DNA from: Eubacterium sp.
Lineage (GTDB): Bacteria; Bacillota; Clostridia; Lachnospirales; Lachnospiraceae
Reading direction: 5' to 3'
DNA: 64,000 nt
Assembly (NCBI GenBank): GCA_021769425.1
Contig: JAETSX010000005.1
Coordinates: 1-64,000, forward strand
Under the pieces are notes generated by a model. That model was not told the origin of the DNA. It worked only from the letters and a program-made list of their open reading frames with translations, and searched no databases. The translations under genes were made by a program, and so were the position numbers. Positions within the stretch are counted from its first letter, which is position 1; every line of letters begins with the position of its first letter. Shown here one piece after another: positions 26,491-64,000 of this stretch.

Positions 26491-26751
26491 AACTTCCACC
26501 TCCACTTGCTTTCTAATTTTAGGCATAAAAAAAAGACCTACTTCCATCGCTAGTCTAATATAGCACACTTTTCCTGTGTCCGTCAATACTTTTGCAGAAT
26601 ATAATATGAAAAAACTATGAAAAAAACTTAATAAATAGGAAAAAATATCCGATATAAATATTGAATTATAGATTGAACGCAAAAAGTACAAGGAGTTATT
26701 TTGCGCCCCCATGCTTCGGCATGATTTCACGGATGAAAGGAGGGGATTTTT

Positions 26752-34266: not shown

Positions 34267-34271
34267 GTTCT

Positions 34272-43542: not shown

Positions 43543-44544
43543 TTATTCCGTAATTAATTCATCTTCTTTAAAGTCTTTCACAGCAGCAGTTCCAACAATC
43601 TCATACCACCGCATAGGACTGATGCCGTCTCCCGGGCGCTTCACAGAAAGATTGTCCGCTGTTAATTTTTCACCTTTCCTAATATCCCGTTTCGCTACAA
43701 TGCTTTTCCGTGCAATAGAAATATTCTTTTTTTCAGAGGGACTGGGCTTTTTCTCACCGCTTCCCATTGCCTTTTCAATATTTCGAATAGACGCCACCAT
43801 CTGTTTTAACTCTTCAGGTTCCAGGCTTGCCTTATGATCCGGCCCTTCCATATTTTTATCCAGCGTAAAATGTTTCTCTATGACAGATGCCCCTAAAGCT
43901 GCTGCGGCTATAGGAACCTCAATCCCTGCCGTATGATCTGAATATCCCACCGGAACCTGAAATACATCTTCCATTTTTCTCATTGCATGCAAATTTACGT
44001 CTTCCATTGGGGTAGGATATTCTGTATTGCAGTGGAGAAGCGTAATTTGACCCGCTCCATTTTTCCTCAGGACAGAAAGAGATCTCTCAATTTCATCCAT
44101 CGTACACATGCCTGTGGATAAAATAATGTCTTTTCCTGTACTGGCAATCTTCTCTAAATATGGAAGATTTGTAATTTCTCCTGAAGGTATTTTCCAAAAG
44201 GGGATTCCAATCTCCTCCAAAAAATCAACACTTTCCAGATCAAATGGAGTGGACAGAAACATAATTCCTTTTTCCTTACAGTACTGTTGTATAGAACGGA
44301 ACTGTTCAAAAGACAGTTCCAGTTTTTTTACCATATCAAACTGACTTTCCTCACTCCCCGTATTTTCTTTCTGATATTCTGCTTTTTGAGCAAACTTTGA
44401 AATTACATTTTCTGTCACAAACGTTTGGAATTTTACACAATCCGCCCCGGCTTCCACAGCCTTATCTACTAATTGAAGAGCCAAATTATAATCTCCGTTA
44501 TGATTATCGCCTGCTTCTGCTATGATAAATACTTTTTTTTCCAT
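43543..44544 (-). CDS. legI: N-acetylneuraminate/legionaminate synthase with C-terminal SAF domain
   Basis: FIIAEAGDNHNGDYNLALQLVDKAVEAGADCVKFQTF...; NeuB family. Confidence 0.92.
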   Translation of the reverse strand: MEKKVFIIAEAGDNHNGDYNLALQLVDKAVEAGADCVKFQTFVTENVISKFAQKAEYQKENTGSEESQFDMVKKLELSFEQFRSIQQYCKEKGIMFLSTPFDLESVDFLEEIGIPFWKIPSGEITNLPYLEKIASTGKDIILSTGMCTMDEIERSLSVLRKNGAGQITLLHCNTEYPTPMEDVNLHAMRKMEDVFQVPVGYSDHTAGIEVPIAAAALGASVIEKHFTLDKNMEGPDHKASLEPEELKQMVASIRNIEKAMGSGEKKPSPSEKKNISIARKSIVAKRDIRKGEKLTADNLSVKRPGDGISPMRWYEIVGTAAVKDFKEDELITE

Positions 44545-44577
44545 TCTCTCCTCCGCTCCATCACTTCCTTTTTTATA

Positions 44578-45630
44578 TTAAGCCCTGTATTTAATTAAAA
44601 ACTGCTTAGCGTCGTCAAAAGTCTGATCTTTTTCTCTTCTCAGGGACACTAACTCATCAAATGCCTGTGGATCAAAAATATTCCTTCCAATGCAAAAATC
44701 CAGCAATCCATTCCTGTTAAAGTGCTTCTTAAAAGTCAGGAGGCTGTCTTCGATTCCCACTCCGCCGCCCAAATGGAATTCTTTGATCCCCTGTTCTGCC
44801 GCCCAGTCAGCAGCCGCGCTCAGCAACAAATTAGCCGATGCCAGTTTCCGATATTCCGGTAATGTTCCCGACAAGTGATAATGCATATATTTTTTATTAT
44901 AAAAAAAGATAGAAGCGCTGACAGGCATTCCCTGATAAACGGCGTAAAAGTATATGATGTTCTCTTTCATGTGATGATTTATATATTCAAAATATTCCCG
45001 TTTAAAATAATAATAATCCTCTGCTTCATTATTTCTCATCGTTGCTTCATATATATTCTGAAATTCTCCTGTCCTCTCACCTTTATCTTTTACAATTTCT
45101 ACTCCATGTCTCAGGGCTTTGCGAACCATGTTTCTATTATTGGGAGTCATATTCTTGAATATAATCTCTTTGTCTGCGGTATCCATATAAACTGTCTTTT
45201 TCATGTACACAATATCGCACACATTCTCAATCGCTTTTTGATTCTGCAATAACGGATGAAAGCGGAAAAATTGAGAAATTATTTTATGATTCCTGCACCA
45301 TTCGCTCAGTTCTCTTATAAAATTTTCAACCCATTCCGTTGTTATATCACCTTCTGTCAAAGGCCCGCCATACCCGTAAGGCGTCGTCCAGTCGTAATAC
45401 ATACCCGGTCTTAAATAAGAAGACAACGGTAAAAACCTTGCAATATCCTCCTGCATCATTACATAACACAGCTTTCCCTCATTTTGCTCATGATAGATTA
45501 AAACAGGCTGTCCATCGCCATGCAGCTGTAAGGAACAGGCATATTCATTCAAATAATAAATATCCCAATTCCGAAAACTCTTTATTGTGCTGTTCCATTT
45601 TTCCTTTTTCTCTATTGGAATTATTTCCAT
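44578..45630 (-). CDS. FemAB/BioF2-like GNAT-fold acyltransferase
   Basis: 350 aa; FKNMTPNNRNMVRKALRHGVEIV...SASIFFYNKKYMHYHLSGTLPEYRKLASANLLLSAAADWAAEQGIKEFHLGGG. Confidence 0.75.
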   Translation of the reverse strand: MEIIPIEKKEKWNSTIKSFRNWDIYYLNEYACSLQLHGDGQPVLIYHEQNEGKLCYVMMQEDIARFLPLSSYLRPGMYYDWTTPYGYGGPLTEGDITTEWVENFIRELSEWCRNHKIISQFFRFHPLLQNQKAIENVCDIVYMKKTVYMDTADKEIIFKNMTPNNRNMVRKALRHGVEIVKDKGERTGEFQNIYEATMRNNEAEDYYYFKREYFEYINHHMKENIIYFYAVYQGMPVSASIFFYNKKYMHYHLSGTLPEYRKLASANLLLSAAADWAAEQGIKEFHLGGGVGIEDSLLTFKKHFNRNGLLDFCIGRNIFDPQAFDELVSLRREKDQTFDDAKQFLIKYRA

Positions 45631-45632
45631 AG

Positions 45633-46685
45633 CTATCTCCTGATTTTTACGTAATCTCTTATCAGCTCTGCTAAATACTGAATATGTTCTGCCCCATATC
45701 TTTGATCAATCGGCAGCGATAGAATTTGCTCTGACATTTCTTTTGCATCTTTATGATCCTCCAAACCGGTTCCGGCCAATGGCCAATGTACGGCGCAATA
45801 GACCCGATGCTCCGCCAGATACTGGCGAAACTCCTCCCTGCCATTCAAATAAACGGGACAGGCGAGGGGAACCATCTGCTTACTTTCCAGAGCCAATTCC
45901 ATTCCACATTCCTGCAATGCATTTCGCAGCATCCGATAATTCTCCCTTCTTTTTTCTTTCAGTTCATCAATTGAAAAATACTTTAATAAGCTTCGGGATA
46001 ATTCAGAAATCCTATATATTTCCCTCTGTTTGTCCATCTTCTCTTCCTCTTCTGTAAAAATCTTCCGGTACAATTCATTGCCGTCTGCTTTTCCTTCAAG
46101 ATACAGTTTTTTCAGAATCATAGCTTCCAAAACCGCCGACGGATTTTTGGCAAATATATCCGCGAAAGGAATATCCATCTGCTTATTTTCAGAATATAAT
46201 ACTCCGCCGTCTGAAATGGGAAACCATTTGCGCAGACTGCAGACGCAATAGTCACCTATGGTTCTTCTTTTTGTAAAAATGCTGTGGGTAGTATCTTCAA
46301 TAATAACAAATTCATACTGCCGTCTCTTTTTATTTAACCAATTTAAAAACATCTCATCCTGCTGCTGCCCAAAATAATGCATAAGATAAACAGCGGTGAC
46401 GCCCTCAGAAAGTTTACTGTCCAAATCCTCTATATCAACAGTAAAATCTCTCTTGATTTTATAAAATACGATTGAAAAATTTTCCCGATATACCTTTACC
46501 ACAGATTCGCAGATATAAGAGGGCAGCAGAATGATTCCCGAAGCTAACACTTGATTCAGGACAGCTAAAGCGCTGCGCCCGCTGTCCATGTAGTAGGTGT
46601 GATATGACTCTAAATAACGAAATATGTGGCTTTCCGTATTATGCAAACTGGAAATATCTAATTCAAAATTGCTGCCAAGCTCCAT
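45633..46685 (-). CDS. DegT/DnrJ/EryC1-like PLP-dependent aminotransferase (divergent)
   Basis: YYMDSGRSALAVLNQVL...FVIIEDTTHSIFTKRRTIGDYCVCSLRKWFPISDGGVLYS (candidate PLP-Lys in SLRKW). Confidence 0.75.
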   Translation of the reverse strand: MELGSNFELDISSLHNTESHIFRYLESYHTYYMDSGRSALAVLNQVLASGIILLPSYICESVVKVYRENFSIVFYKIKRDFTVDIEDLDSKLSEGVTAVYLMHYFGQQQDEMFLNWLNKKRRQYEFVIIEDTTHSIFTKRRTIGDYCVCSLRKWFPISDGGVLYSENKQMDIPFADIFAKNPSAVLEAMILKKLYLEGKADGNELYRKIFTEEEEKMDKQREIYRISELSRSLLKYFSIDELKEKRRENYRMLRNALQECGMELALESKQMVPLACPVYLNGREEFRQYLAEHRVYCAVHWPLAGTGLEDHKDAKEMSEQILSLPIDQRYGAEHIQYLAELIRDYVKIRR

Positions 46686-46688
46686 AAA

Positions 46689-48581
46689 TTATCCCTCGTC
46701 CCTGGGCGGATCGTTTACTTCCTCCATCCCATCTATAAAGATTTCTTCTGCAAACTCTTGAAATACCTCGGCCATATCCGCTACATTCTTCATATAAAGA
46801 ATTCCCTTTCTTGCCATTTCTTTTCCTTCTTCCCGGATGGAATCCTTTACCAAAAACTGCTCATTACTTAAAATGTACTGGGCATTATTCATAGTGATCA
46901 TCACCAATTGATAGGTACTTCTCTTCCCAATATCCTCCATCTTCCGCTCAATTTTCTTTAATAAATTCAAATATTCCTTTTGATCAATATTTCTCCTCTT
47001 ACATACTTTATCCAATTTTTGATATAATTTTACTATTTTCTGGGCAGCTGCTGATAAGTTCTGAAACTCTCTCCCCAGACCTTTCAGATACTTTACAGCC
47101 CACTCTTTTGCCTCCTCATCCAACATGCAGGGCAGCTTTCCAAGACATTTCTGAATATCCACCTCTTTAGTACATTCTTTTTGAATTGCCTCCCGCAAAG
47201 TCATAATCTCTGTATTTTGGATCTTTGCTCCGCCTTCAGTAGCATTAATTACGCGGAAACTCTTTCTATGATTCTGGCATCCTTCTATGTACATATTGTA
47301 CCAGTCAATAAACACCTTAAAATCATTTCTGGTTGGAACTTTTTCCTCATAATTTCCCTCCACCATCCTAAAATAACTGGTATTCACCTGTTCCATAACC
47401 TCATGAAAGGTTCCGTCCGCATGGGATTTATTGTCTGTATAGGCCAAATCCTGCCCCACTAAAATAACTGTATCAATTCCAATTTTATATAATAATGAAA
47501 ATACGCTGGTGGCAACCGAACCGCCGCAGGATACATCCCCTATCTTCTGGCCACTTTTCAAAAATATTCTTTCTGCAAATTGGTATCCTTCATTAAAGAA
47601 AAATTTCATGCCTTTATGGTACTCCAATATTTCCGGCGCCGCATTTAACGTAGTTAAAAGGGGAATTTCCCTTGATTCTTCTATTTTAACAAGATCCAAC
47701 GGCTTCATTGCATCAACAATTGCGTACATATCTGGTTTTATCCCCGCCTGCAGCAAAGGCTTCATTGCAGTATCCACCGCAACAATAAACGCTTTCCCTT
47801 TTGCTTTCTTTAATTCCTGAATATTTTTATTGAGGGAAGGCCCCGCTGCCACCAGAATTCCTGGAATATCCCGAGGAATTACATCAGGAAGCTGGGTGGT
47901 TTTATAGCCGTTGCATAAGTATCTCGCATTAAGGAATAAATTTTTTACCATAACAGCTGAAAAAACATTTTTAGTATTGAAATCCATCGTTTCCCTTAAC
48001 GCAATATCACGGCATGTTTTCATAAACCCGACTGTTTCTTCCGGAAATAATTTACCATAATTGGGAAGAACAATATTTTTGGAGAAATTCAGCATCTCAT
48101 AGATCAAAACACTTTGCAAAATTCCTTCCATATGTTTTTGATCCATATCCTTCAATCCGTCCACCCAAAAAACAATCAGATGCTTTTTCATCCATGACTC
48201 TAATTCTGCCATTTCCAAAAACTTCAAAAAGATCTGGATAGACGGTTCATATATAATAATTGTAATTCGATTTTCTGTGTGTTCCACTAATTCTTTTAAA
48301 TAGGACGGATTTCCGGTTCCCACCATCAAAACTGGTGCATTAGGCTGAAGTTCTCCCAAGGTTTCCACCCAAATCTGAGCCGGTTCCGCCGTATTCCGCT
48401 TACCGCATAAATAACAGATCTTATCCTCCTTTTCTATTTTTAAAATCTTCTCTCCGCTGTAAGACGCTTCCTCTATAATTTTCAATTTTGGTTCTATTGT
48501 TTTTCCCGCTTCTTCAATCATTTTGTCCATTTCCGGATAATGTTCCGCCAATACTTTCAAATTCTTTTCATAGATTGTCAT
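46689..48581 (-). CDS. motility accessory factor (Maf/DUF115) flagellin glycosyltransferase
   Basis: IPGILVAAGPSLNKNIQELKKAKGKAFIVAVDTAMKPLLQAGIKPDMYAIVDA...VSCGGSVATSVFSLLYKIGIDTVILVGQDLAYTDNKSHADGT. Confidence 0.92.
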   Translation of the reverse strand: MTIYEKNLKVLAEHYPEMDKMIEEAGKTIEPKLKIIEEASYSGEKILKIEKEDKICYLCGKRNTAEPAQIWVETLGELQPNAPVLMVGTGNPSYLKELVEHTENRITIIIYEPSIQIFLKFLEMAELESWMKKHLIVFWVDGLKDMDQKHMEGILQSVLIYEMLNFSKNIVLPNYGKLFPEETVGFMKTCRDIALRETMDFNTKNVFSAVMVKNLFLNARYLCNGYKTTQLPDVIPRDIPGILVAAGPSLNKNIQELKKAKGKAFIVAVDTAMKPLLQAGIKPDMYAIVDAMKPLDLVKIEESREIPLLTTLNAAPEILEYHKGMKFFFNEGYQFAERIFLKSGQKIGDVSCGGSVATSVFSLLYKIGIDTVILVGQDLAYTDNKSHADGTFHEVMEQVNTSYFRMVEGNYEEKVPTRNDFKVFIDWYNMYIEGCQNHRKSFRVINATEGGAKIQNTEIMTLREAIQKECTKEVDIQKCLGKLPCMLDEEAKEWAVKYLKGLGREFQNLSAAAQKIVKLYQKLDKVCKRRNIDQKEYLNLLKKIERKMEDIGKRSTYQLVMITMNNAQYILSNEQFLVKDSIREEGKEMARKGILYMKNVADMAEVFQEFAEEIFIDGMEEVNDPPRDEG

Positions 48582-49028: not shown

Positions 49029-50255
49029 TTACTGTAACAAGGATAATACACCCTGAGTTGACTGATTAGCCTGTGCCAACATGGACTGTCCAGCCTGAGC
49101 AAGAATATTGTTCTTGCTGTATTCAACCATCTCAGAAGCCATATCAAGGTCACGGATACGAGACTCTGCTGCCTGTGTATTCTCAGCAACATTATCCAGG
49201 TTTGCAATTGTATGCTCTAATCTGTTCTGAATTGCACCAAGTGCGGATCTCTGGGAAGATACCTTATTGATTGCATTCTGCACAGCGGTAATCGTTGCAT
49301 TTGCAACTGCATAAGAGTCTACCTTAGGCTTATCATAAGTGAAAGAAGCGCCAGAAGCTGCAACTGTAGGTCCGTTTGCAACAACATTTGTCTTGTCAAT
49401 ATAATCTGCAAAGCTGGCAACCATTGCATTGCTCATAGCTGCTTTAGCTGCACTGATATCATTCGCCATAGCCCAGCTAACTTTTGTGGAATAATTTGTT
49501 GTAAGAGAGATACCATTTGTGCTAAATTCACCGTAATATACATCTGTTCCGCTCATATACGGTGCATATTGATCTTCGGAAGCAGCATTTATAATTGCTG
49601 TTGAAAACGCCTGAGCTGCCAAAGTCTGATTGCTTGCTGCAGTTTTAGAAGCATCCCACTGATAAGTCATCCCTTTATATGTTACAGAAAGTGGTTTGCT
49701 GCCTGTCTGAGTAGCACCAGCTTCGAAGCCTTTGATTTCTCTCAATCCTAGTGTCTCAGCATTCATATTGTCAATGCTGATCTGAATCTTCTGATTTGCA
49801 TTTGCGCCAACCTGAAGATTTCTGGTTGTAAAGGTTCCATCCAACAAATTCTGCTTATTGAACTGAGTTGTAGTGGAGATTCTGTCTAATTCCTGTGTCA
49901 GCTGATCTAATTCTTCGTTGATAGCTTCACGGTCAATGTTCTCATTTGTGTCATTAGCGCCCTGAACTGCCAGTTCATTCATTCTCTGGAGAATAGAATG
50001 AGCTTCATTTAAAGCACCTTCAGCAGTCTGGATTAAGGATACACCATCCTGTGCATTTGTAGAAGCACGTGTTAAACCGCGCACCTGGCTCCTCATTTTC
50101 TCAGAAATCTTTAATCCTGCTGCATCATCGCCAGCACGGTTAATTCTGTAACCAGATGATAATTTTTCAGAAGATTTTGCCTGAGCACTTGTTGTAACAC
50201 CCAACTGACGGTTGGAATTCATTGCTGTAAGATTGTGTTGTACGACCATTGCCAT
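49029..50255 (-). CDS. hag: flagellin
   Basis: MAMVVQHNLTAMNSNRQLGVTTSAQAKSSEKLSSGYRINRAGDDAAGLKISEKMRSQVRGL...; ATG at 50255 after AGGAGG. Confidence 0.97.
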   Translation of the reverse strand: MAMVVQHNLTAMNSNRQLGVTTSAQAKSSEKLSSGYRINRAGDDAAGLKISEKMRSQVRGLTRASTNAQDGVSLIQTAEGALNEAHSILQRMNELAVQGANDTNENIDREAINEELDQLTQELDRISTTTQFNKQNLLDGTFTTRNLQVGANANQKIQISIDNMNAETLGLREIKGFEAGATQTGSKPLSVTYKGMTYQWDASKTAASNQTLAAQAFSTAIINAASEDQYAPYMSGTDVYYGEFSTNGISLTTNYSTKVSWAMANDISAAKAAMSNAMVASFADYIDKTNVVANGPTVAASGASFTYDKPKVDSYAVANATITAVQNAINKVSSQRSALGAIQNRLEHTIANLDNVAENTQAAESRIRDLDMASEMVEYSKNNILAQAGQSMLAQANQSTQGVLSLLQ

Positions 50256-50445
50256 AAGATTTTCCTCCTTGAATATACTGCAGCTTCCATGCTGCAAAAT
50301 TATTTAATATAACTACCATTCATCAAATATGACGGCATTTATATTCTGTTAAAACAGTCTTCCAAGTTTCTGATTGGCGCCTAGGATAATCACCAGAAAC
50401 CATCTTGCAACGATTACAATGTTGCATCTTTGACTTACATTATTT

Positions 50446-50513: not shown

Positions 50514-51422
50514 TTATTGACCTCTCTGCCAACAAATCACTCTCTCAATACCCTCTTTAAAAGACATTTGCGGTTTATATCCTATATCCCGAACAAGACT
50601 ATTGATATCCGCCTGCAAACCTATCGTACAATTATCACCTGCTTTCTTTGCAAATTCACATCGCCCATCCGCCCGACATAAATCCCTTAATTCCATAATA
50701 TATTCTTTCAATGGCCTTGACTCACCGCTAGCAATGCAATACACCTGGTTCTTATTCACAAGTTCTCCAATCAGATAAAACATCCGTCCGGCGTCATCCT
50801 CATACAGATAGTCCCACATCTGTTCCCCGGAAGAAAATTCAGCCGTTTCTCCCTTTAAAAACCTGTCCATAGCATAATTTATCATAGTTCCTTCTCTGTC
50901 ATAGCAGCCGTACACGCTGAAAATCCTCGTCCAAATATGAATCAAATCAGATTGCTCACATAACTTACCGCTCATTATTCCTGCACTGTACTTCGCCATT
51001 CCATAAGCAGTCAGCGGATTCACAGGCGTATCCGGTGTAATAACAGCGTCAACTTTTCCATATTCTGCCTGTGAACCAGCTCCGATAAATTTTCTGCACC
51101 CAAGCCTTTTGGCCAAATTTACCGCATCTAACGTATATTTAATGTTTGGCTCCTGCAGTATGGGATTGTCTCTCTCTTCTTTCGAGGTATGTCCCCAGCC
51201 CATATGATAAAACACATCATATGTATCAGAAACATCATTAATAGCATCCAGACTGCTTAAATCACATTCATAAACTTTCAATAGCTTTGATTCAGGCAGA
51301 CGATCTATATGGGGAGAATGCGCTCTAACAATTGCCAGTACCTCCGTTTCTCTCTTTATGGATTCCCGTATCAGTGCAGCGCCTATCATACTGGTGGCGC
51401 CAGTTACAATAATTTTTCTCAT
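50514..51422 (-). CDS. NAD(P)-dependent epimerase/reductase (SDR)
   Basis: KIIVTGATSMIGAALIRESIK...YGMAKYSAG active-site YxxxK; last gene of CDP-sugar cluster. Confidence 0.85.
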   Translation of the reverse strand: MRKIIVTGATSMIGAALIRESIKRETEVLAIVRAHSPHIDRLPESKLLKVYECDLSSLDAINDVSDTYDVFYHMGWGHTSKEERDNPILQEPNIKYTLDAVNLAKRLGCRKFIGAGSQAEYGKVDAVITPDTPVNPLTAYGMAKYSAGIMSGKLCEQSDLIHIWTRIFSVYGCYDREGTMINYAMDRFLKGETAEFSSGEQMWDYLYEDDAGRMFYLIGELVNKNQVYCIASGESRPLKEYIMELRDLCRADGRCEFAKKAGDNCTIGLQADINSLVRDIGYKPQMSFKEGIERVICWQRGQ

Positions 51423-51460: not shown

Positions 51461-53260
51461 CTATGATTCCTCTACAGGTTTTACGATCATATGCTCCCTA
51501 AATTCATCCCTTGGCAAAAATGGATACATATCTTCAATAGGTGCAGACACCAATCTGCCATCTTCTAATTTCTTTGAACTCACTGACGGTATGACTTCCT
51601 GATCACGTATTATTTTCACTTCACATAGTACCGGTCCCCTTTTAGACATAATTTCCGGCATTTTATCCTCTATATCCTGAATCGTTTCGATCTTGAAATA
51701 ATCTATCCCATAAGCATCCGCTATCTTTTCTATCTTTGGAAATGACACACCTGATGCACTGTCTGTACCAATAAATCTCCCCTCAAAAAATTTATTTTGT
51801 GTTGCGCGGATAGATAAATATCCGTCATTATTCCATACAAACAGTTTCACCGGCAATTTATGATGCACTAACGTCTGAAGTTCCTGTATATTCATCTGAA
51901 AGCTTCCATCGCCCGTAATTCCCAACACTTCTTGACTCTTTCTTGCAAAACAGACCCCGATTGCCGCCGGCAATGTAAAGCCCATTTCTGCCTGGGCGCC
52001 GCTGGCAATATACCTTTGGCTTTTATCATACGTTTTGATTCCCTGGGCAGGAACATAGGCCACAGAACCTGCATCTGCCACTAATACAGAATCATCTTTG
52101 AAATATTTTGACAATTCCTCAACAAATAAATACATATTAATTCCCTGAGAATCATCTCTATAATATTCTTTTAAACAAACCGGATACAAATTCTTCCATT
52201 CCAGGCATTTTTTTGCCCATTCACCATAGTTGCATTCCTTACACGCTGACAGCAGTTTTTGCAATGCATCTTTCGCATCTGCCTGGATAATCTGCTCAAC
52301 ATGGACTGTATTTTTCAAATGCTCATATTTATCAATATCAATCGCAATTACTTTTGCCTCTCTCGCAAAATATTCATACTCCTGTCCTGTACTGCTTACG
52401 CTCAGCCTGCTGCCAACCGCAATCACCAAGTCAGCATTCTGCAACGCAAAATTAGCAGCCCGTGTCCCCTTATTTCCTATTCTTCCGATATTTAACTCAT
52501 CCAATGTAGGCATTACATCCGTACCAAGCCTTGAACATACAACAGGGATTTTATGTTTATGCACAAATTCTGAAAATTCTTCTATTGCACCTGCCAGCCG
52601 TATCCCATGGCCTGCAATGATAACCGGACGTTTGGCACTTTTCAGATCATCCACAAGCCCATCTACTTCTTTTGGATGGATTTTTTTCTTCACTGGCTTT
52701 AATTCTTCCGGCTCAAAATGGCGCAAGTCTGCTTCCTCTATCTCCGCTGACTGAATATCCATAGGTATATCTAGCCATACCGGGCCAGGTCTTCCATTTC
52801 TCGCCAAAAATAACGCCTTTTCCAAATGATATAATATATCTTCTGCATGTTCCACCATTACCGCATACTTTGTAATTGACCTTACAATCGATATGATATC
52901 TGCTTCCTGGACGCCAACCTGACGGATTGGGAGATTGATATACCCCAGTGTTTCCTTGCGCTTGCACTGTCCGGAAATAAACACACACGGAACATTATCC
53001 TGCCATGAGTTCAATACTCCTGTAATCGCATTGGTACCGCCGCAGCCTGTTGTCACATATGCACAGCCAATCCCTTTATACTTTGCATATGCCGCAGCAG
53101 CCATTGCCACAGCCTGCTCATGATGACAGCATATTTTATTTAATTTCTGATTACATGCAAGGCCATCCGTAAGAAACATAACCCCGCCGCCGGAAATCAT
53201 AAAAACGTCCTCTATCCCACTGCTATAAATATAATCTGCTACTAAATCACATACTCGCAT
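51461..53260 (-). CDS. thiamine diphosphate-dependent acetolactate synthase-like enzyme
   Basis: CCHHEQAVAMAAAAYAKYKG, ThDP motif GDGSFQMNIQELQTLVHHKLPVKLFVWNNDGYLSI. Confidence 0.88.
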   Translation of the reverse strand: MRVCDLVADYIYSSGIEDVFMISGGGVMFLTDGLACNQKLNKICCHHEQAVAMAAAAYAKYKGIGCAYVTTGCGGTNAITGVLNSWQDNVPCVFISGQCKRKETLGYINLPIRQVGVQEADIISIVRSITKYAVMVEHAEDILYHLEKALFLARNGRPGPVWLDIPMDIQSAEIEEADLRHFEPEELKPVKKKIHPKEVDGLVDDLKSAKRPVIIAGHGIRLAGAIEEFSEFVHKHKIPVVCSRLGTDVMPTLDELNIGRIGNKGTRAANFALQNADLVIAVGSRLSVSSTGQEYEYFAREAKVIAIDIDKYEHLKNTVHVEQIIQADAKDALQKLLSACKECNYGEWAKKCLEWKNLYPVCLKEYYRDDSQGINMYLFVEELSKYFKDDSVLVADAGSVAYVPAQGIKTYDKSQRYIASGAQAEMGFTLPAAIGVCFARKSQEVLGITGDGSFQMNIQELQTLVHHKLPVKLFVWNNDGYLSIRATQNKFFEGRFIGTDSASGVSFPKIEKIADAYGIDYFKIETIQDIEDKMPEIMSKRGPVLCEVKIIRDQEVIPSVSSKKLEDGRLVSAPIEDMYPFLPRDEFREHMIVKPVEES

Positions 53261-53291: not shown

Positions 53292-54656
53292 TCAAATTTG
53301 TTCTTTTACTGCTTCAACAATCACCTGTGACATGTCATCTATCATTTCATTTGTCATTCCCGGATAAACGCCAACCCAAAAAGCATCCTTCATAATCCGC
53401 TCCGTATTCTCCAGTTCACCAACCACACGATATCCTCTTTTCTCCCTCCGCATCTGGTCAAAGCATGGATGTTTAATCAAATTCCCGGCAAACAGCATAC
53501 GGGTTTGTATGCCTTTCGCCTCAAGGCAGGAAACCATTTTATTCCGCGCAATTCCCTCCCTGCAGGTAATCAAAAAACCAAACCAACTGGGAACAGAATT
53601 TGCACATGCCTCCGGGAGAATCAGCCATTCCTTCAAATCTGCAAGATTTGATTTCAGCCGCTCAAAATTTTGAACCCGTTTTTTCACAAATCCCGGAAAT
53701 TTTTTAAGCTGAGCGCATCCTATCGCCGCCTGCATATCTGTAGCTTTTAAATTATATCCAAAATGGGAATATACATATTTATGATCATATCCCATGGGAA
53801 GTTCCCCATACTGTCTGTCAAACCTGTGGCCGCACAGATTGTCTTTCCCGGAAGGGCATGTGCAGTCCCGTCCCCAATCACGGAAAGAACGAATACATTT
53901 ATGCAAGAGTGGGTTATTTGTATAAACTGCCCCGCCTTCTCCCATTGTCATATGATGGGGCGGATAAAAGGACGAAGTTCCAATATCGCCGATTGTGCCT
54001 GTAAACTTTTCCTCGCCATCTATAATATATTTACTGCCCAATGCATCACAGTTATCTTCAATCAACCATAAATTATGTTTTTCACAAAAGGATTTCACTG
54101 TATACAGGTCAAAGGGATTTCCCAGCGTATGCGCTGCCATCACAACTTTTGTCTTATCTGACAGTGCTTCTTCTAACTGGGTAACATCCAGATTATATTG
54201 AGGAATTGTAACATCAATAAACACCGGCGTCACACCATACTGTATTGCAGGCGTAACTGTGGTTGGAAAGCCTGCTGCAACGGTAATCATTTCATCTTGA
54301 GGACGTACCTGACGCTCCCCCAGCAACGGCGACGTCAGGGCCATAAAAGCATTTAAATTTGCGGATGAACCAGAATTAACCAGAGAACAATATCCCACTC
54401 CCAAATACTCTGCCAGGGAGCGTTCAAATTCATCCGTATATTTTCCTGACGTCAGCCAGAATTCCAGTGCCGAATCCACTAAACTGCACATTTCCTCCTG
54501 ATCGTACACCCGCGAGGCATATGGAATCTTATCCCCTGCCTTATATTCTTTCTGGTTGTGATATGTCTTACAGTATTCCGCAACAATATCCAAAATCTCT
54601 TTTCTTGCTTCCTGTTCCGTCATACTATTAAATTTTAACATCTGCACTTTCCTCAA
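53292..54656 (-). CDS. rfbH: CDP-4-keto-6-deoxy-D-glucose-3-dehydrase (RfbH/E1-like, DegT family)
   Basis: SGSSANLNAFMALTSP...AAGFPTTVTPAIQYGVTPVFIDV...DIGTSSFYPPHHMTMGEGGAVYTNN (His replacing PLP-Lys) ; Cys-rich CTCPSGKDNLCGHRF. Confidence 0.92.
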   Translation of the reverse strand: MRKVQMLKFNSMTEQEARKEILDIVAEYCKTYHNQKEYKAGDKIPYASRVYDQEEMCSLVDSALEFWLTSGKYTDEFERSLAEYLGVGYCSLVNSGSSANLNAFMALTSPLLGERQVRPQDEMITVAAGFPTTVTPAIQYGVTPVFIDVTIPQYNLDVTQLEEALSDKTKVVMAAHTLGNPFDLYTVKSFCEKHNLWLIEDNCDALGSKYIIDGEEKFTGTIGDIGTSSFYPPHHMTMGEGGAVYTNNPLLHKCIRSFRDWGRDCTCPSGKDNLCGHRFDRQYGELPMGYDHKYVYSHFGYNLKATDMQAAIGCAQLKKFPGFVKKRVQNFERLKSNLADLKEWLILPEACANSVPSWFGFLITCREGIARNKMVSCLEAKGIQTRMLFAGNLIKHPCFDQMRREKRGYRVVGELENTERIMKDAFWVGVYPGMTNEMIDDMSQVIVEAVKEQI

Positions 54657-54726: not shown

Positions 54727-55509
54727 TTAATCTTTCCAGACTTTCCAGGGAGCCTGTCCCGTTTCCCAAAGTTTTTCCAACATATCCTTTTCTCTTTTAT
54801 GATCCATACATTGCCAAAAACCTTTATGGGTATAAGACATCAGCTGCCCTTCCGATACCAGACGTTCAAACGGTTCTCTCTCAAACACAGTCTGATCTCC
54901 AGCCAGATATTTGAATATTTCCGGCTCAAATACCATATAACCTGCATTAATCAATACTCCGTCATTTTTATTCTTTTCACGGAAAGAACGGACTGCATTA
55001 TCGCCGCCAATATCCATAATTCCTTTTTGCTGTTCTACCATTACCGCTGTCAATGTTGCAATTTTTCCATGTGACCTATGAAATTCCAACAGTTTTTGTA
55101 TATTAACATCACAGACGCCATCTCCATAAGTCAGCATAAACGGCTCATTCTCAATATAGGGCTGTATCCTTTTAATCCTGCCGCCAGTCATTGTATTTAA
55201 CCCGGTATCCACAACTGTAATTTTCCAAGGTTCACAAAAATGATTATGGATTGTAACGTCACGCTTCCCTTTTGAAAAATCAAATGTCACATCGCTGTTA
55301 TGTAAAAAATAATCCGAAAACCATTCTTTTACCATATGCTGTTTATATCCTGCGCAAATCACAAAATCATGGAAGCCATAATGAGAATATCCTTTCATTA
55401 TATGCCATAGAATAGGTTTTCCTCCAATCTCAATCATCGGCTTTGGCTTCCATTGGCTTTCTTCACTAATTCGTGTGCCATATCCGCCGGCTAAAATAAC
55501 AACTTTCAT
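54727..55509 (-). CDS. rfbF: glucose-1-phosphate cytidylyltransferase
   Basis: MKVVILAGGYGTRISEESQWKPKPMIEIGGKPILWHIMKGYSHYGFHDFVICAGYK. Confidence 0.95.
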   Translation of the reverse strand: MKVVILAGGYGTRISEESQWKPKPMIEIGGKPILWHIMKGYSHYGFHDFVICAGYKQHMVKEWFSDYFLHNSDVTFDFSKGKRDVTIHNHFCEPWKITVVDTGLNTMTGGRIKRIQPYIENEPFMLTYGDGVCDVNIQKLLEFHRSHGKIATLTAVMVEQQKGIMDIGGDNAVRSFREKNKNDGVLINAGYMVFEPEIFKYLAGDQTVFEREPFERLVSEGQLMSYTHKGFWQCMDHKREKDMLEKLWETGQAPWKVWKD

Positions 55510-55548: not shown

Positions 55549-56619
55549 TCAGCTGTCTCTTATGGATGATTCTTTCCAAAATTCCTGCAATTGCCTGTCC
55601 ATACAATCACAGACAGATTCTTTCCTCAGATAAGCTTTCGTCCATTCCACTGTTTTTTCCACAGCTTTTTCAATGTCCCATACCGGTTTCCACTGAAATC
55701 TGTTCTTTATTCTGGAACAATCCAGCTTCAAAAAGCCTGCCTCATGGGGTCCAATCATAGATTGTGTTTCCCAGGATGCTTCCGGCCCCCACTTTTCACA
55801 AAACAATTGCACCAGCTCCCCTGTAGTGATGCAATCCTTTTCTTCCGGCCCTACATTATAGCATCCTGCATATTCCGGATGTACTGCTTGCTGCCAGGCT
55901 GTCAGCATATAAGCATGCAGAGGTTCCAGCACATGCTGATATGGACGGACAGAATGTGGATTGCGGACAATTATTTTTTCCTTCCTCTGCATAGCCCTTA
56001 CACAGTCAGGTATGATACGATCTTTTGAAAAATCTCCCCCGCCGATGACATTTCCGGCACGCATAGTAGAAACAGCGATGCCTTTCTCTTTTAAAAATGA
56101 ACGGTTATAGCTATGAGTTACCAACTCTGAACAGGATTTGGAGTTTGAATAGGGATCAAATCCATCCAGCCTGTCATCTTCCCGGTATCCCCATTCCCAT
56201 TCCTGATTATCATATACCTTATCCGTTGTGATATTCACCACAGATTTTACGCTTTTCGATTGCCTTACACATTCTAAGAGGTTAACCGTCCCCTGCACAT
56301 TGATTTCGTAAGTTTCTTTCGGATTCCTATAGGATTCACGGACAATTGGCTGTGCAGCCAAATGAAACACGAGCTCTGGATTCTCATTGACAAAGATCTT
56401 TTTTAAATGATTAAAATCCCGTATATCACCAATTACGGAATGCACCCTATGTTTTAATCCTGCCGATTCAAAAAGAGACGGATGGGCTGGCTCTAACGAA
56501 TATCCAACGACTTCTGCGCCCATGTCGTATAGTATTTTACTTAGCCAGCTTCCTTTGAAACCGGTATGCCCTGTTACCAATACTCTCTTCCCCTGGAAAA
56601 ACTTTGTATCAATTGTCAT
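55549..56619 (-). CDS. rfbG: CDP-glucose 4,6-dehydratase
   Basis: FFQGKRVLVTGHTGFKGSWLSKILYDMGAEVVGYSLEP; start MTIDTKFF at 56619 (listed ORF over-extended). Confidence 0.95.
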   Translation of the reverse strand: MTIDTKFFQGKRVLVTGHTGFKGSWLSKILYDMGAEVVGYSLEPAHPSLFESAGLKHRVHSVIGDIRDFNHLKKIFVNENPELVFHLAAQPIVRESYRNPKETYEINVQGTVNLLECVRQSKSVKSVVNITTDKVYDNQEWEWGYREDDRLDGFDPYSNSKSCSELVTHSYNRSFLKEKGIAVSTMRAGNVIGGGDFSKDRIIPDCVRAMQRKEKIIVRNPHSVRPYQHVLEPLHAYMLTAWQQAVHPEYAGCYNVGPEEKDCITTGELVQLFCEKWGPEASWETQSMIGPHEAGFLKLDCSRIKNRFQWKPVWDIEKAVEKTVEWTKAYLRKESVCDCMDRQLQEFWKESSIRDS

Positions 56620-56641
56620 ACTATTGTACCTTCCAAAATGT

Positions 56642-58303
56642 TTATCTGTGCACATCCTTTTCTCTGTATTCCAAAAATAATTCAGCAATTTTTTCCCGAA
56701 GACCTGCTCTCTCTTCCAATGTTGTATCATTTTCCAATAGGCTAAGATTTTTTTCAGCTCTTCTCCTTGCGTCTTCCAAAACACTCTCCCATTTCATATT
56801 ATTTTTTTTAAAATAGTCAGCATAAAAAAACACTGAAAGATACAATAAATGAAAAAATTTCCAGCAGCGTTCTACATACAAACAGCAAAGTATATTTCCG
56901 GACATACCGCTTTCAATAAATACATTTACGGCACCCACAAATTGCTGTTCCCTTGAGTCAATGAGCATATATGACTTTAAACTTTCATCATCTTCTTCCT
57001 CCTCTGCTTTTTCCAACCACAATGGGGGCTGTCCACATTCTAATATAGCACTCACTAAAGCTAATTTAAAATTTAATATGCAATGAGGATAATAATCAAC
57101 CATTATGTTGTCTGCATGCTGCCGTAAATATTCTAATAAACCCATTTGATGGATCAGAGCCATATTATACCCAATCCCTGTCATATAAGCTCGGTTTATC
57201 CCTGTTATTATAGCTTCATACCCATGAAGCTGTACGGTTTCTTGTTCAAGCGGCGGAAAATTCTGCATCCCAAAACCACCGGTTACAAATACTCCGCATT
57301 CTCTATACTTTTTGAACAAATTAAAATAATGGGGCAACTGCTCAATCAACATTACATCTTCATCGCTGCTCAAAACAGCATATTTCCCTTTTGCCATCTC
57401 CAATCCCCTAACAACATTTTCTAAAAAGCCCATATTATATTTATTACGATTATATCTTACCCTTGTATCATGCATTTGCTGGATAGCTTCATACTCCGAA
57501 ACATATAAATCTGAACCATTGTCAGAAACAATTATCTCAATTTCACTGTCATAGTGGGAGCGGCAAATCTCTTCTACTGCAGATAATGCCCTTCTGCCAC
57601 GATTATAGCTGGGAATAATAATAGAAAGAAATACATTGTCCCTTTGTTGTGACAAATACTTAATCCGTTTTCTATGTATATGATTCAAAATAAATTCATA
57701 TTTATCACTTGACGCCAGGATTTTTTTTGGCAGATAATAATTGGAATACTCATCAAAAAATATTTTCATTATTTCTGTGTCTTCAAAAATTACTACATTC
57801 TTCATATAAAGTTCATGAAAACGCGGCAGCTTAAAAAAAGAAGCAAAACCCGCTGCCTGCTGATTCAGTAAAATATATACGGTATCCCAGGTTGTTTCTT
57901 TCATAAAAGGCAATATCTGCCGGAAATCCCAATAATCTGCAACCAAAATACTTTCAAAATCCACATCATCTGACATAATAGATGTATCATCCAATTGGAA
58001 AGAACCCGCAAATTCTTCAGAAGGACGATGGAACAGATAAAATTTTGAATCCGAAACTGGAATAAAATCTATTTCTAATTCTTCGTATGGGATATCCAGC
58101 ATCTCTTTTCTGTTCTCTTGATAATTTTTTTTAAATTCTGCTTCATTAGGTGTAATAAAACATGAATATAAATGATCCAAAATTTCTTTCCGATGTGTCC
58201 CATGTCTATACGCTTTTATAAAATTTTCAACTGCCTTGTCATATTGCTGGCTTTCAAAAAACACTACAGCTGCCTGGTAATAGGCGTCTCCTATTTCATT
58301 CAT
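56642..58303 (-). CDS. family 2 glycosyltransferase with N-terminal TPR-like segment
   Basis: NVFLSIIIPSYNRGRRALSAVEEICRSHYDSEIEIIVSDNGSD. Confidence 0.88.
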   Translation of the reverse strand: MNEIGDAYYQAAVVFFESQQYDKAVENFIKAYRHGTHRKEILDHLYSCFITPNEAEFKKNYQENRKEMLDIPYEELEIDFIPVSDSKFYLFHRPSEEFAGSFQLDDTSIMSDDVDFESILVADYWDFRQILPFMKETTWDTVYILLNQQAAGFASFFKLPRFHELYMKNVVIFEDTEIMKIFFDEYSNYYLPKKILASSDKYEFILNHIHRKRIKYLSQQRDNVFLSIIIPSYNRGRRALSAVEEICRSHYDSEIEIIVSDNGSDLYVSEYEAIQQMHDTRVRYNRNKYNMGFLENVVRGLEMAKGKYAVLSSDEDVMLIEQLPHYFNLFKKYRECGVFVTGGFGMQNFPPLEQETVQLHGYEAIITGINRAYMTGIGYNMALIHQMGLLEYLRQHADNIMVDYYPHCILNFKLALVSAILECGQPPLWLEKAEEEEDDESLKSYMLIDSREQQFVGAVNVFIESGMSGNILCCLYVERCWKFFHLLYLSVFFYADYFKKNNMKWESVLEDARRRAEKNLSLLENDTTLEERAGLREKIAELFLEYREKDVHR

Positions 58304-58340: not shown

Positions 58341-59357
58341 CTATCCTTGAGATAACATTTTTGACTTCAATTTTTCCGCAACCTCTAAAATAACATCATC
58401 TTCTCCTGCTATTACATTCCGTTTCCCCAGTTCTAAAAAGATATCTCTCCCAGAAATATGGTATTCCTGCGCTATTTTCAAGACTTTATGCTTTACAGTG
58501 GAAACTACGCCTGCATAGCCGCTTACGATACTAATATCATTGACCGGAGTTTTATATTCCCACATCGGCTGTACGACTTTTTCACTTACCTCTAACATCT
58601 GATTTAAATTTATGCCGGACTTAATTCCTTCTTTCTCGAACAATGCCACCAGAGCTTCCAACTGACAGTTTCCTGCCCCTGAACCAAATCCGCGCAACGT
58701 TCCATCCATAATATCTGCCCCTGACTGATATGCTACATACGATAAAGCCACTGCCATCCCAAAATTATTATGGGAATGGAATCCTACCGTAATATTTAAT
58801 TCAGATGTTAAATACTCAACTACTTCTTTCACTTTTTCTAATGTTGATGTTCCGGCAGAGTCCATTAAAATAACGCCTTTTGCGCCATAACTCTCAATTT
58901 TTCTAGCTTCCTCTAATAATCTCTCTTTAGAAGCCATATGGTACATCATTAACACCCCATACACTTCCATTCCTTTCGAAACCAAATACGAAATATGAGG
59001 TTTTGTTGTATCTGCTTCCGTACAATGGCATGCTACGCAAAATATAGTTGCACCTGCTTCTATAGCCGGATTAATCTGATTCCTAATGGTTCCAAACCCA
59101 ACCGTAATAAAGGCTCCCAAGGACGTTTCTTTTAGTTCTTCTCTTGCAATTTTTAACATATCTATTTCATCCAATCCACTCAAACCCATTTGAATGGAAG
59201 ATGCGCCTAAACCATTTCCATGACCAACGATACATACATAATTTCCACATCCATCTATTGCCTTGCAATATTTTCTTATCTGTTCTTCTGTCAAATTCTG
59301 TTTCACAGCATGGGAACCATCCCGCAAAGTAGAATCAAAAATTAATGGCTGCCTCAA
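58341..59357 (-). CDS. mhpE: 4-hydroxy-2-oxovalerate aldolase (DmpG/MhpE family)
   Basis: IFDSTLRDGSHAVKQNLTEEQIRKYCKAIDGCG...GFHSHNNFGMAVALSYVAYQSGADIMDGTLRGFGSGAGNCQLE. Confidence 0.93.
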   Translation of the reverse strand: MRQPLIFDSTLRDGSHAVKQNLTEEQIRKYCKAIDGCGNYVCIVGHGNGLGASSIQMGLSGLDEIDMLKIAREELKETSLGAFITVGFGTIRNQINPAIEAGATIFCVACHCTEADTTKPHISYLVSKGMEVYGVLMMYHMASKERLLEEARKIESYGAKGVILMDSAGTSTLEKVKEVVEYLTSELNITVGFHSHNNFGMAVALSYVAYQSGADIMDGTLRGFGSGAGNCQLEALVALFEKEGIKSGINLNQMLEVSEKVVQPMWEYKTPVNDISIVSGYAGVVSTVKHKVLKIAQEYHISGRDIFLELGKRNVIAGEDDVILEVAEKLKSKMLSQG

Positions 59358-59359
59358 AT

Positions 59360-60238
59360 TTATCGCTCCTTAATCAAAATGTTATTGTAGTATTTTTCTG
59401 CCATTTCTATTGCTGCACAAGTTATAATGTCAAGATTCCCAGCATACTCAGGGAGAAAATCTCCATTTCCAGACACTTCAACTGTAATTGCCAATATATT
59501 ATCTATTAAAGATGGAGCAACAATAATTTTATAGCCTGGAACATATCTTTTTACTTGTAACTCTGTCCTTTCAACACCCTCACATACTCTGCTCAAATCT
59601 CCTTGTTCCACCTGAAAATATATGGTATTTCTCATATTAACCGGAGGTTCATTGGGATTAATAATCATAATAGATTTTGTATGATTAACACCTGTAAACA
59701 GCTTCATTGCTCCAGAAGTTGTCTCTATAAATTCATCTATATTTTCCCGTGTAGCTTTACCTGCTGATTTCGCTGATATCGTTGACACTGTTTCGATGTA
59801 TGACACACTACAGCCAGCTTGCACAATGGCATATGCTAAAGGAATTGTAGCTTGGCCTCCGCAAGTTATCATATTTACTTCTCTGCACCATACACATTCT
59901 TCCCCATTGATAAATGGCACACATTTTTTCCCTGTTTCTGTAGGCGTTAAATTAATAACATATTTCCCCAGGCGTTCCAGTAAATTTCTATGGGCCATAT
60001 GCGCTTTGGCACTGGTAGCATCAATTATAATATCAAGGTTATTTTGATTGTCCACCAGTGCCTTTACTCCATCAATCGAAGTAGAAATTCCCATATCTGA
60101 AACCATTTTGATGTTTGAAGAATCTGGATTATGACCAGCAAAAACTGTGCACTCCAATGACTCTGTATTCAGAATTTTCATTAATAAATCTGTGCCTATA
60201 TTGCCTGTTCCTAATATTCCTATTTTTGCCTTTTTCAC
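59360..60238 (-). CDS. mhpF: acetaldehyde dehydrogenase (acylating; DmpF/MhpF family)
   Basis: KIGILGTGNIGTDLLMKIL...EVNMITCGGQATIPLAYAIVQAGCSVSYIETVSTISAKSAGKATRENIDEFIETTSGAM. Confidence 0.93.
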   Translation of the reverse strand: MKKAKIGILGTGNIGTDLLMKILNTESLECTVFAGHNPDSSNIKMVSDMGISTSIDGVKALVDNQNNLDIIIDATSAKAHMAHRNLLERLGKYVINLTPTETGKKCVPFINGEECVWCREVNMITCGGQATIPLAYAIVQAGCSVSYIETVSTISAKSAGKATRENIDEFIETTSGAMKLFTGVNHTKSIMIINPNEPPVNMRNTIYFQVEQGDLSRVCEGVERTELQVKRYVPGYKIIVAPSLIDNILAITVEVSGNGDFLPEYAGNLDIITCAAIEMAEKYYNNILIKER

Positions 60239-60308: not shown

Positions 60309-60436
60309 ACTTTTATGGTATGTCGCCTCCATGCGTCTAAACGATTTCCTATCTTTATTTTATATCGGTAAAATTTAATTTATAATTTAGTTAAATTTTA
60401 AATATCTTCTATCCATTTACAGTTTTTTCACTATTA

Positions 60437-61970: not shown

Positions 61971-62255
61971 TTAAGCGTTCTTTTGCATTTCACGCTGTTT
62001 CAGCAGATTATACGATTTGTTTTTTACCACAGTGTCCATATAAAACCAGACTCTGCAGGGTTCTGAATCAAGCATCTTATCTGCATTCCTGAGCAGCGAT
62101 AAAAATGTCTCCTGCACTATATTTTCCGCATCCTCTGCATTATGCAGGATCATATACGCTTTATGGTACACCTCATCCTTATGCTTCTTATACAAATTTG
62201 TGAAATACTCTCTCCCATGTTCTGTTTCTAACAACGTCAGGTATTGTAATAGCAT
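61971..62255 (-). pseudogene. ECF-like sigma factor paralog truncated after sigma2 region
   Basis: MLLQYLTLLETEHGREYFTNLYKKHKDEVYHKAYMILHNAEDAENIVQETFLSLLRNADKM...NLLKQREMQKNA*; lacks sigma4 seen in the next two paralogs. Confidence 0.7.
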
Positions 62256-62542
62256 AATTCTCTTTCCTTCTCCTTTCTCTTTTGTATGGTTTTCTGTTAC
62301 AGTTTTCATTTTACACATGATCTCCATGACATTCAATCCCATGTCAGAAAAATTCTCAAAATGCGTTTTTCACATGTGTTGCTTAACCAGATATTTCGGA
62401 TGCACTGAAGCCCGGCTCCATTTGGAATAAGTAAAACTGCCGGAAAATGTATGATTCTCCCCAAGATATACTGTGATTTTTTTATCATCGCAGCAACCTA
62501 TGACGGTGAAACTCCATTTCCCGGCACAATTATGTCGGCTTC

Positions 62543-63145
62543 TTATCTCTTATTGCTTTTCTTACCGCTTCCCTTTCCCTGACCTCCTTTTTCATTCCAT
62601 AGGCCGTTTTCTTCCAGAATAGACTGCAGCTTCTCCTTGGCGCGCTTGGATATATGCCTCACATTGTCCGCCGTGGTCTCCAATTCCACTGCAATTTCCT
62701 TCGGCTTCATCTGATAGTAGTACTGCAGAATCAGCACTTCCTTATAAGGATGCTTCAGCCTTTTTAATAAGCCGGCCAGAGCTTCCTGAACCTCGAATTC
62801 TTCCATCAATATGTCCGGGCCTTTTTCCATAATTTCTTCCTGCATCCAGGTTTCATCCAAGCCGGGCGTTTCCTGAATTTTCCGGCGTTTCAGCAGATTG
62901 AGTGAACGGTTTTTCACAATGGTTTCCATATAGAACCAGACCTTATAAGGCTTTTCGTTGATCACTTTATCTACATTCCGAATCAGCGACAAAAACGTCT
63001 CCTGTACCATATCTTCCGCATCCTCTGCATTATGTACGATATTATAGGCCTTAAAATACAGTTCCGTTTTGTGTTTCTTATAAATATCTGTGAAAAAGTC
63101 TTTTTCGCGATCTGTTTCTAACAGAGCCAGATATTGTAGCAGCAT
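62543..63145 (-). CDS. ECF-like sigma-70 family sigma factor (paralog 2, full length)
   Basis: MLLQYLALLETDREKDFFTDIYKKHKTELYFKAYNIVHNAEDAEDMVQETFLSLI...LILQYYYQMKPKEIAVELETTADNVRHISKRAKEKLQ. Confidence 0.88.
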   Translation of the reverse strand: MLLQYLALLETDREKDFFTDIYKKHKTELYFKAYNIVHNAEDAEDMVQETFLSLIRNVDKVINEKPYKVWFYMETIVKNRSLNLLKRRKIQETPGLDETWMQEEIMEKGPDILMEEFEVQEALAGLLKRLKHPYKEVLILQYYYQMKPKEIAVELETTADNVRHISKRAKEKLQSILEENGLWNEKGGQGKGSGKKSNKR

Positions 63146-63424: not shown

Positions 63425-64000
63425 CTATTTTTTATCTTTATTATCTTTATCATCTTTTTCATTCCACAATCCGTTTTCCTCCAATATGGACTGCAGCTTT
63501 TTCTTGGCTCTCATAGAAATATGCCTGACATTATCCGGCGTGGTTTCCATCTCTTCTGCAATTTCCTGAACGCTCAGCTCATGATAATACTGCAGAGCCA
63601 ATACCTGCTGATAGGGACGCTTCAACTTTTTCAGCAGCCCGGTCATTGCCTCCTGAAGTTCAAATTCCTCAATCAGGGCATCCGGTCCCTTCTCTATCAC
63701 TTCTCCCTGCATCCACTCCTCATCCAGGCCAGGATCCTCCTGAATCTTTCTGCGCTTTAAGAGGTTAAAGGATTTATTTTTTACTGTAGTATCAATGTAA
63801 TGCCAGATTTTATGGGGTTCATTGTCTATCAGCTTATCCACATGCTTGATCAATGTCAGAAATGATTCATGTACAATGTCTTCTGCATCTGAAGAATCAT
63901 GCACAATATTGTAGGATGTAAAAAACATCGCATTTCTGTGTTCCTTATATATCTTTGTGAAAAAGTCTTTTTGCTTGTCCGTTTTCAGCAGTACTAAATA
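63425..64000 (-). CDS. ECF-like sigma-70 family sigma factor (paralog 3, runs off the window)
   Basis: YLVLLKTDKQKDFFTKIYKEHRNAMFFTSYNIVHDSSDAEDIVHESFLTLIKHVDKL...EIAEEMETTPDNVRHISMRAKKKLQ; frame open to window end. Confidence 0.85.
   Translation of the reverse strand, partial: YLVLLKTDKQKDFFTKIYKEHRNAMFFTSYNIVHDSSDAEDIVHESFLTLIKHVDKLIDNEPHKIWHYIDTTVKNKSFNLLKRRKIQEDPGLDEEWMQGEVIEKGPDALIEEFELQEAMTGLLKKLKRPYQQVLALQYYHELSVQEIAEEMETTPDNVRHISMRAKKKLQSILEENGLWNEKDDKDNKDKK

Follow-up and report, generated by a model that had tools for sequence, protein, structure and literature searches.

An aromatic-degradation-type aldolase and dehydrogenase pair that appears to have been recruited for making the branch of a rare ten-carbon flagellar sugar

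Introduction

DmpG and DmpF are the textbook enzymes that close the meta-cleavage degradation of aromatics. Homologs of this pair lead a nucleotide-sugar operon in a Lachnospiraceae bacterium (Eubacterium sp., contig JAETSX010000005.1), which raises the question of what a catabolic-type aldolase and dehydrogenase might contribute to a sugar. The stretch of DNA analysed, here called the window, is 64,000 nucleotides long. An earlier reading of it (the sequence-only reading) had proposed that the pair runs in the synthetic direction and feeds a 2-oxo acid other than pyruvate to a ThDP enzyme of the same operon.

Results and Discussion

Identity of the aldolase and dehydrogenase pair

The two genes are complete ORFs on the minus strand, separated by 2 bp. 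The gene mhpE (58341..59357, minus strand, TTG start) encodes a 4-hydroxy-2-oxovalerate aldolase of 338 aa, which scored 324.5 bits against the NCBIfam equivalog TIGR03217 (curated cut-off 286) and contains the DmpG communication domain PF07836 (61 bits) as well as intact catalytic motifs (DSTLRDGSHA and HSHNN). The gene mhpF (59360..60238, minus strand) encodes an acetylating acetaldehyde dehydrogenase of 292 aa with a PF09290 domain, which scored 338.6 against the equivalog TIGR03215 (cut-off 282.25) and retains GTGNIG and the catalytic Cys126 in CGGQATIP. The closest solved structures are 4lrs for MhpE and 7z3s for MhpF. The assignment of the pair to the MhpE/DmpG and MhpF/DmpF families, made in the sequence-only reading, was thus upheld. 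The usual substrates of these families are acetyl-CoA and pyruvate.

PF07836 has one copy across the full assembly, so the pair is single-copy. Membership in an aromatic meta-cleavage pathway requires an upstream hydratase of the PF01557 family (hydratase/FAA-hydrolase, including the meta-cleavage hydratase) in the genome, and this family has zero matches in the assembly, which is 97% complete, while the operon context consists of sugar genes. Because the same search was positive in 11 of the 14 control genomes, the absence of a hydratase that had been noted earlier holds genome-wide.

Operon organization and flagellar surroundings

The genes lie on the same strand in the order mhpF-mhpE-GT2-rfbG-rfbF-rfbH-ThDP-SDR; flagellin comes next, and then a PseD/MAF-like gene. 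The family 2 glycosyltransferase (GT2; 56642..58303, minus strand, 553 aa, PF00535) has an orthologue with 94% identity at the corresponding position in Petralouisia muris (L038). It is followed by rfbG, encoding CDP-glucose 4,6-dehydratase (55549..56784, minus strand, TIGR02622 over cut-off), rfbF, encoding glucose-1-phosphate cytidylyltransferase (54727..55509, minus strand, TIGR02623 over cut-off), and rfbH, encoding CDP-6-deoxy-4-hexulose 3-dehydrase (53292..54656, minus strand, NF011936, 707.6 against a cut-off of 423). RfbH has its histidine in the context FYPPHHMTMGEGG and cysteines at positions 203, 265, 267, and 275; no RfbH-partner reductase (RfbI/E3) was seen within the operon, and an electron partner for RfbH is presumed. 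The last two genes of the sugar run encode a YerE-like ThDP C-C transferase (51461..53260, minus strand, 599 aa, PF02775/02776/00205) and an SDR-type oxidoreductase (50514..51422, minus strand, PF01370), a candidate reductase of the branch ketone, homologues of which recur next to YerE-like genes elsewhere. These assignments confirm the earlier claim that the pair leads a sugar operon holding a ThDP enzyme. From mhpE down to the SDR gene, the intergenic gaps are 31-70 bp, save for one apparent GT2/rfbG overlap. This overlap is probably an artefact of the long-ORF start, and the true start of rfbG is probably near 56600 because homology begins only at residue ~62.

Downstream lie a flagellin (49029..50297, minus strand, PF00669/PF00700), the probable glycan acceptor, and a PseD/MAF-like flagellin modification protein (46689..48581, minus strand, PF01973), the latter scoring 83.6 bits against NF050051, below its cut-off of 670. 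Further downstream of flagellin (43543-46685), genes for a NeuB-family synthase and a FemAB-like protein and a weak DegT-like match were observed, possibly a second flagellar glycan route.

A motif of the type recognized by the flagellar sigma factor SigD (TAAA-N17-CCGATAT; 60362..60389, minus strand) was found ~124 bp before mhpF; it is a motif match with a slightly long spacer, not a mapped promoter, and at this level it places the operon in the SigD regulon. The window holds three matches to the motif against 0.30 expected, a number reached in 0 of 100 shuffles, and the motif also precedes mhpF in P. muris (L038 8909-8936). The position of mhpF and mhpE first behind it argues for a flagellar and against a catabolic role. 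The other two matches are located at 26632-26655 (plus strand) and 34247-34274 (minus strand). Just upstream of the operon, at 61971-63145 and 63425-64000, three adjacent ORFs encode sigma-70 region 2 or 4 domains.

Classification of the ThDP enzyme

The window ThDP enzyme scored 396.7 against the acetolactate synthase model, below the cut-off of 538, and is therefore not a housekeeping acetolactate synthase. It has the HHEQA glutamate and a GDG...NN motif, it is split from the acetolactate synthases in the tree at 100/100, and RfbF, RfbG, and RfbH are encoded in its operon, which together place it among the YerE-like enzymes. Its best match among solved structures is 8rph (431 bits), and the next is 5ahk (296 bits), which we take to be PpYerE. 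Previous work named 8rph JanthE and showed that it accepts pyruvate through longer 2-oxo acids, including 4-hydroxy-2-oxovalerate (PMC12188165). The Pectobacterium enzyme ErwE was reported to prefer 4-hydroxy-2-oxo acids, including 4-hydroxy-2-oxopentanoate, over pyruvate as donor and not to accept pyruvate, and 200 or more YerE-like enzymes have been listed, the products of most of which are not known (PMC12247030).

Conservation of the linkage between aldolase and ThDP enzyme

Aldolases with 49% identity or more to the window MhpE (window-type MhpE) were found at 13 loci of Lachnospiraceae, Anaerovibrio, and Elusimicrobiota, gathered partly using MhpE as query, and at these loci the aldolase and a YerE-like ThDP gene stand in one operon-like run, with at least four gene arrangements. 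A GTDB genome scan with the aldolases of the window and of genome G029 returned five loci (P. muris, Anaerovibrio, two copies in Ca. Endomicrobiellum, and G029), in all five of which a ThDP gene adjoins the aldolase or lies in the same operon. The entire operon is kept in P. muris (L038, 86-97% identity). In Anaerovibrio the order is ThDP-SDR-mhpF-mhpE, and recognisable RfbF and RfbG are absent within 21 kb. Window-type MhpE (49-55%) is present in 7 of 150 Elusimicrobiota genomes; all copies adjoin a YerE-like gene or lie within 2 kb of one, in several gene orders, and RfbF/G/H are present too on contigs of sufficient length. The linkage, which could have proved a peculiarity of one genome, is thus kept in three lineages.

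About 10% of Bacillota genomes hold MhpE of another group, more distant from that of the window (35-41% identity), and none of the 20 such MhpEF loci read has RfbF/G/H or a YerE-like ThDP gene. The MhpE tree groups the sugar-linked rows with three plasmid rows (support 100/99) and separates them from the remaining Bacillota homologues. Two of the plasmid homologues (L007 11989-15254 and L008 1468-4733, from Leisingera and Phaeobacter plasmids) are DmpG/DmpF pairs with ATP-grasp and aminotransferase genes, a setting that looks biosynthetic rather than meta-cleavage. No RfbFGH or YerE-like ThDP gene was found at the plasmid loci (L007, L008, and L009, the last without annotation), which have no bearing on the sugar.

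The ThDP enzymes of the 13 MhpE-linked loci all fall inside one clade of 18 rows (SH-aLRT 94), the rest of which comprises two rows linked to an aminotransferase, one linked to NeuB, and two without these modules. Strict monophyly of the MhpE-linked ThDP enzymes, or strict co-inheritance of the module with one clade, was rejected (p-AU 1.65e-5). The two clade rows without a module, L030 and L279, have a transketolase-like gene near the YerE-like gene, and none of the 2-oxo-acid modules was found there.

Outside Petralouisia, the ThDP enzymes most similar to that of the window are those of L242 (67%) and L243 (64%). At both loci a class I/II aminotransferase gene adjoins the ThDP gene (L243 8129-9307; L242 3554-4673, on a contig of 4.7 kb) and MhpEF is absent; that of L243 sits in a flagellin-linked operon. 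Either the aminotransferase offers an alternative source of a 2-oxo acid, or the ThDP enzyme can do without the MhpEF donor. Transamination of homoserine, for instance, would yield a 4-hydroxy-2-oxo acid, so that both loci fit an exchange of modules, and their aminotransferases mean that similarity of the ThDP enzyme alone leaves the donor unfixed.

Other 2-oxo-acid modules beside YerE-like genes

Twelve Bacillota YerE-like loci without MhpEF prompted a wider census, which covered 105 YerE-like loci of Bacillota and Elusimicrobiota. A 2-oxo-acid-forming gene (MhpE, HpcH/HpaI aldolase, HMGL-like, NeuB-like synthase, DAHP-synthase-like, or class I/II aminotransferase) lies within 7 kb of the YerE-like gene at 88 of the 105 loci, several of these families being large and possibly serving other roles, with NeuB-like genes common in glycan loci. 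The matches concentrate near the ThDP gene (84 within 2 kb versus 5 at 5-9 kb), and RfbH loci without a ThDP gene, taken as background, have a module gene in none of five cases (flanks of 1.5 kb). Module type changes 25 times on the ThDP tree versus 63.9 times in shuffles (0 of 200 as low), a comparison that ignores that some rows are near-copies. The ThDP group near 5ahk is mostly without a module.

At L024 and L033, a DAHP-synthase-like gene stands with HAD phosphatase, ribulose-phosphate epimerase, and RraA-like genes beside the YerE-like gene, and such a set might produce a 3-deoxy 2-oxo acid with a longer chain. One in-frame stop codon was seen inside the YerE-like match in G106, G997, G1101, G104, G998, G1013, and G406, which may be pseudogenes or match-edge effects. 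In G029 (L010 3768-10739, G029:C18; L040), window-type MhpEF adjoins a ThDP enzyme of the two-subunit E1/transketolase-like kind, together with genes for a DegT aminotransferase and an enzyme of the GDP-mannose-dehydratase type, an architecture which suggests that the MhpEF module can serve another ThDP class.

On balance, we lean towards a broader picture in which YerE-like transferases form a plug-in core, where the acceptor route is constant (mostly RfbFGH) and interchangeable 2-oxo-acid genes determine how long the branch is and how it is decorated. Several phyla would then equip their flagella and surface glycans with many, mostly unseen, higher-carbon branched sugars, and G029 would extend the module to a second transferase class.

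Proposed pathway and alternatives

We consider it probable (roughly 0.75) that MhpEF is a donor-supply module for a ThDP-made, erwiniose-type C10 branched sugar, probably put on flagellin. MhpF would reduce acetyl-CoA to acetaldehyde, which MhpE would condense with pyruvate into 4-hydroxy-2-oxopentanoate, and RfbF, RfbG, and RfbH would provide CDP-4-keto-3,6-dideoxyglucose. The YerE/ErwE-like ThDP enzyme would decarboxylate the C5 2-oxo acid and join the remaining C4 acyl unit to the keto sugar at its C4 position. Reduction of the branch ketone, probably by the SDR, would give the C10 sugar, which GT2 and the PseD/MAF-like protein probably attach to the neighbouring flagellin. Operon co-occurrence by itself does not fix reaction direction, donor, or stereochemistry, and we infer these together with the structure of the sugar. 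Comparative sequence evidence, namely the linkage in three lineages, supports the synthetic supply of a non-pyruvate acid envisaged in the sequence-only reading.

Another 2-oxo acid could arise if MhpF acted on a different acyl-CoA or MhpE on a different aldehyde, and the branch would then be longer or differently substituted (e.g., C5 from propanal). This is unlikely, as each window protein clears the cut-off of its equivalog model, acetylating acetaldehyde dehydrogenase for MhpF and 4-hydroxy-2-oxovalerate aldolase for MhpE, and the usual substrates are acetyl-CoA and pyruvate, although at L117 and L122 an HpcH/HpaI aldolase stands between MhpE and the ThDP gene. The in vitro range of ErwE, which takes C4 to C6 hydroxy-oxo acids, likewise leaves room for such a donor (PMC12247030).

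Use of pyruvate by the ThDP enzyme, as in yersiniose A, with MhpEF doing something else such as handling acetaldehyde, has a precedent in YpYerE, which combines a pyruvate donor with the same RfbFGH acceptor pathway (PMC12247030). Many YerE-like loci also lack MhpEF, but most of these have another 2-oxo-acid-forming gene. We regard this use of pyruvate as distinctly unlikely, since the window enzyme scores far higher against JanthE, which takes long donors, than against 5ahk, its clade does not include the 5ahk-like group, and MhpEF stays beside the ThDP gene across three lineages despite shuffled gene order.

That an ordinary catabolic pair came to lie beside the sugar operon by chance, as the textbook role of DmpG/DmpF might suggest, is highly improbable given a single-copy pair in a genome without a PF01557 hydratase and a flagellar-type promoter motif ahead of mhpF, and chance adjacency was rejected by the conservation in three lineages in contrast with 0 of 20 distant loci.

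With 4-hydroxy-2-oxopentanoate from MhpEF as the predicted donor, an odd gene pair becomes a testable prediction of sugar structure, and the results suggest that the neighbouring gene may reveal which donor a YerE-like enzyme uses. Higher-carbon branched sugars would thereby be extended to the flagella of Gram-positive gut bacteria.

Comparison with known systems

The window pair shares both subunits, the two families, and the catalytic motifs with the DmpG-DmpF, BphI-BphJ, and MhpE-MhpF pairs (PDB 1nvm, 4lrs, and 4jn6), but it lies in a nucleotide-sugar rather than a meta-cleavage context and occupies a distinct part of the MhpE tree. JanthE (PDB 8rph), the closest solved relative of the ThDP enzyme, has CDG where the window enzyme has GDG. 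The YerE/yersiniose A system of Yersinia pseudotuberculosis shares the RfbFGH acceptor pathway and ThDP-dependent transfer to C4 but differs in its pyruvate donor and two-carbon branch.

Caryophyllose, the earlier analogy, is a higher-carbon branched sugar like the product predicted here, and its branch (C6) is longer than that predicted for the window. MMAR_2332 of Mycobacterium marinum, linked to caryophyllose, is likewise a YerE-like enzyme using a hydroxylated long donor (PMC12247030). Erwiniose, a ten-carbon branched sugar (PMC8657720), is the better chemical analogue: decarboxylation of 4-hydroxy-2-oxopentanoate leaves four carbons, which with the six of the sugar make ten, so the acid deduced from MhpEF is among the preferred donors of ErwE.

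The coupling had been thought undescribed. Its ThDP half is known, since ErwE uses 4-hydroxy-2-oxo acids, and the system is therefore not categorically new. Across the open literature, no description was found of the MhpEF supply module, its flagellar use, or module exchange; subscription papers, which may note part of this, lay outside the scope, and the novelty of these three points is provisional.

The ErwE/erwiniose system of Pectobacterium atrosepticum shares with the window a YerE-like ThDP enzyme, a 4-hydroxy-2-oxo acid and CDP-4-keto-3,6-dideoxyglucose as substrates, and a C10 product, substrates and product being predictions for the window (PMC12247030, PMC8657720). The operon of the window, which includes MhpEF, is a Lachnospiraceae flagellin operon, and the difference lies in the setting of the sugar, which in Pectobacterium belongs to an O-antigen or exopolysaccharide.
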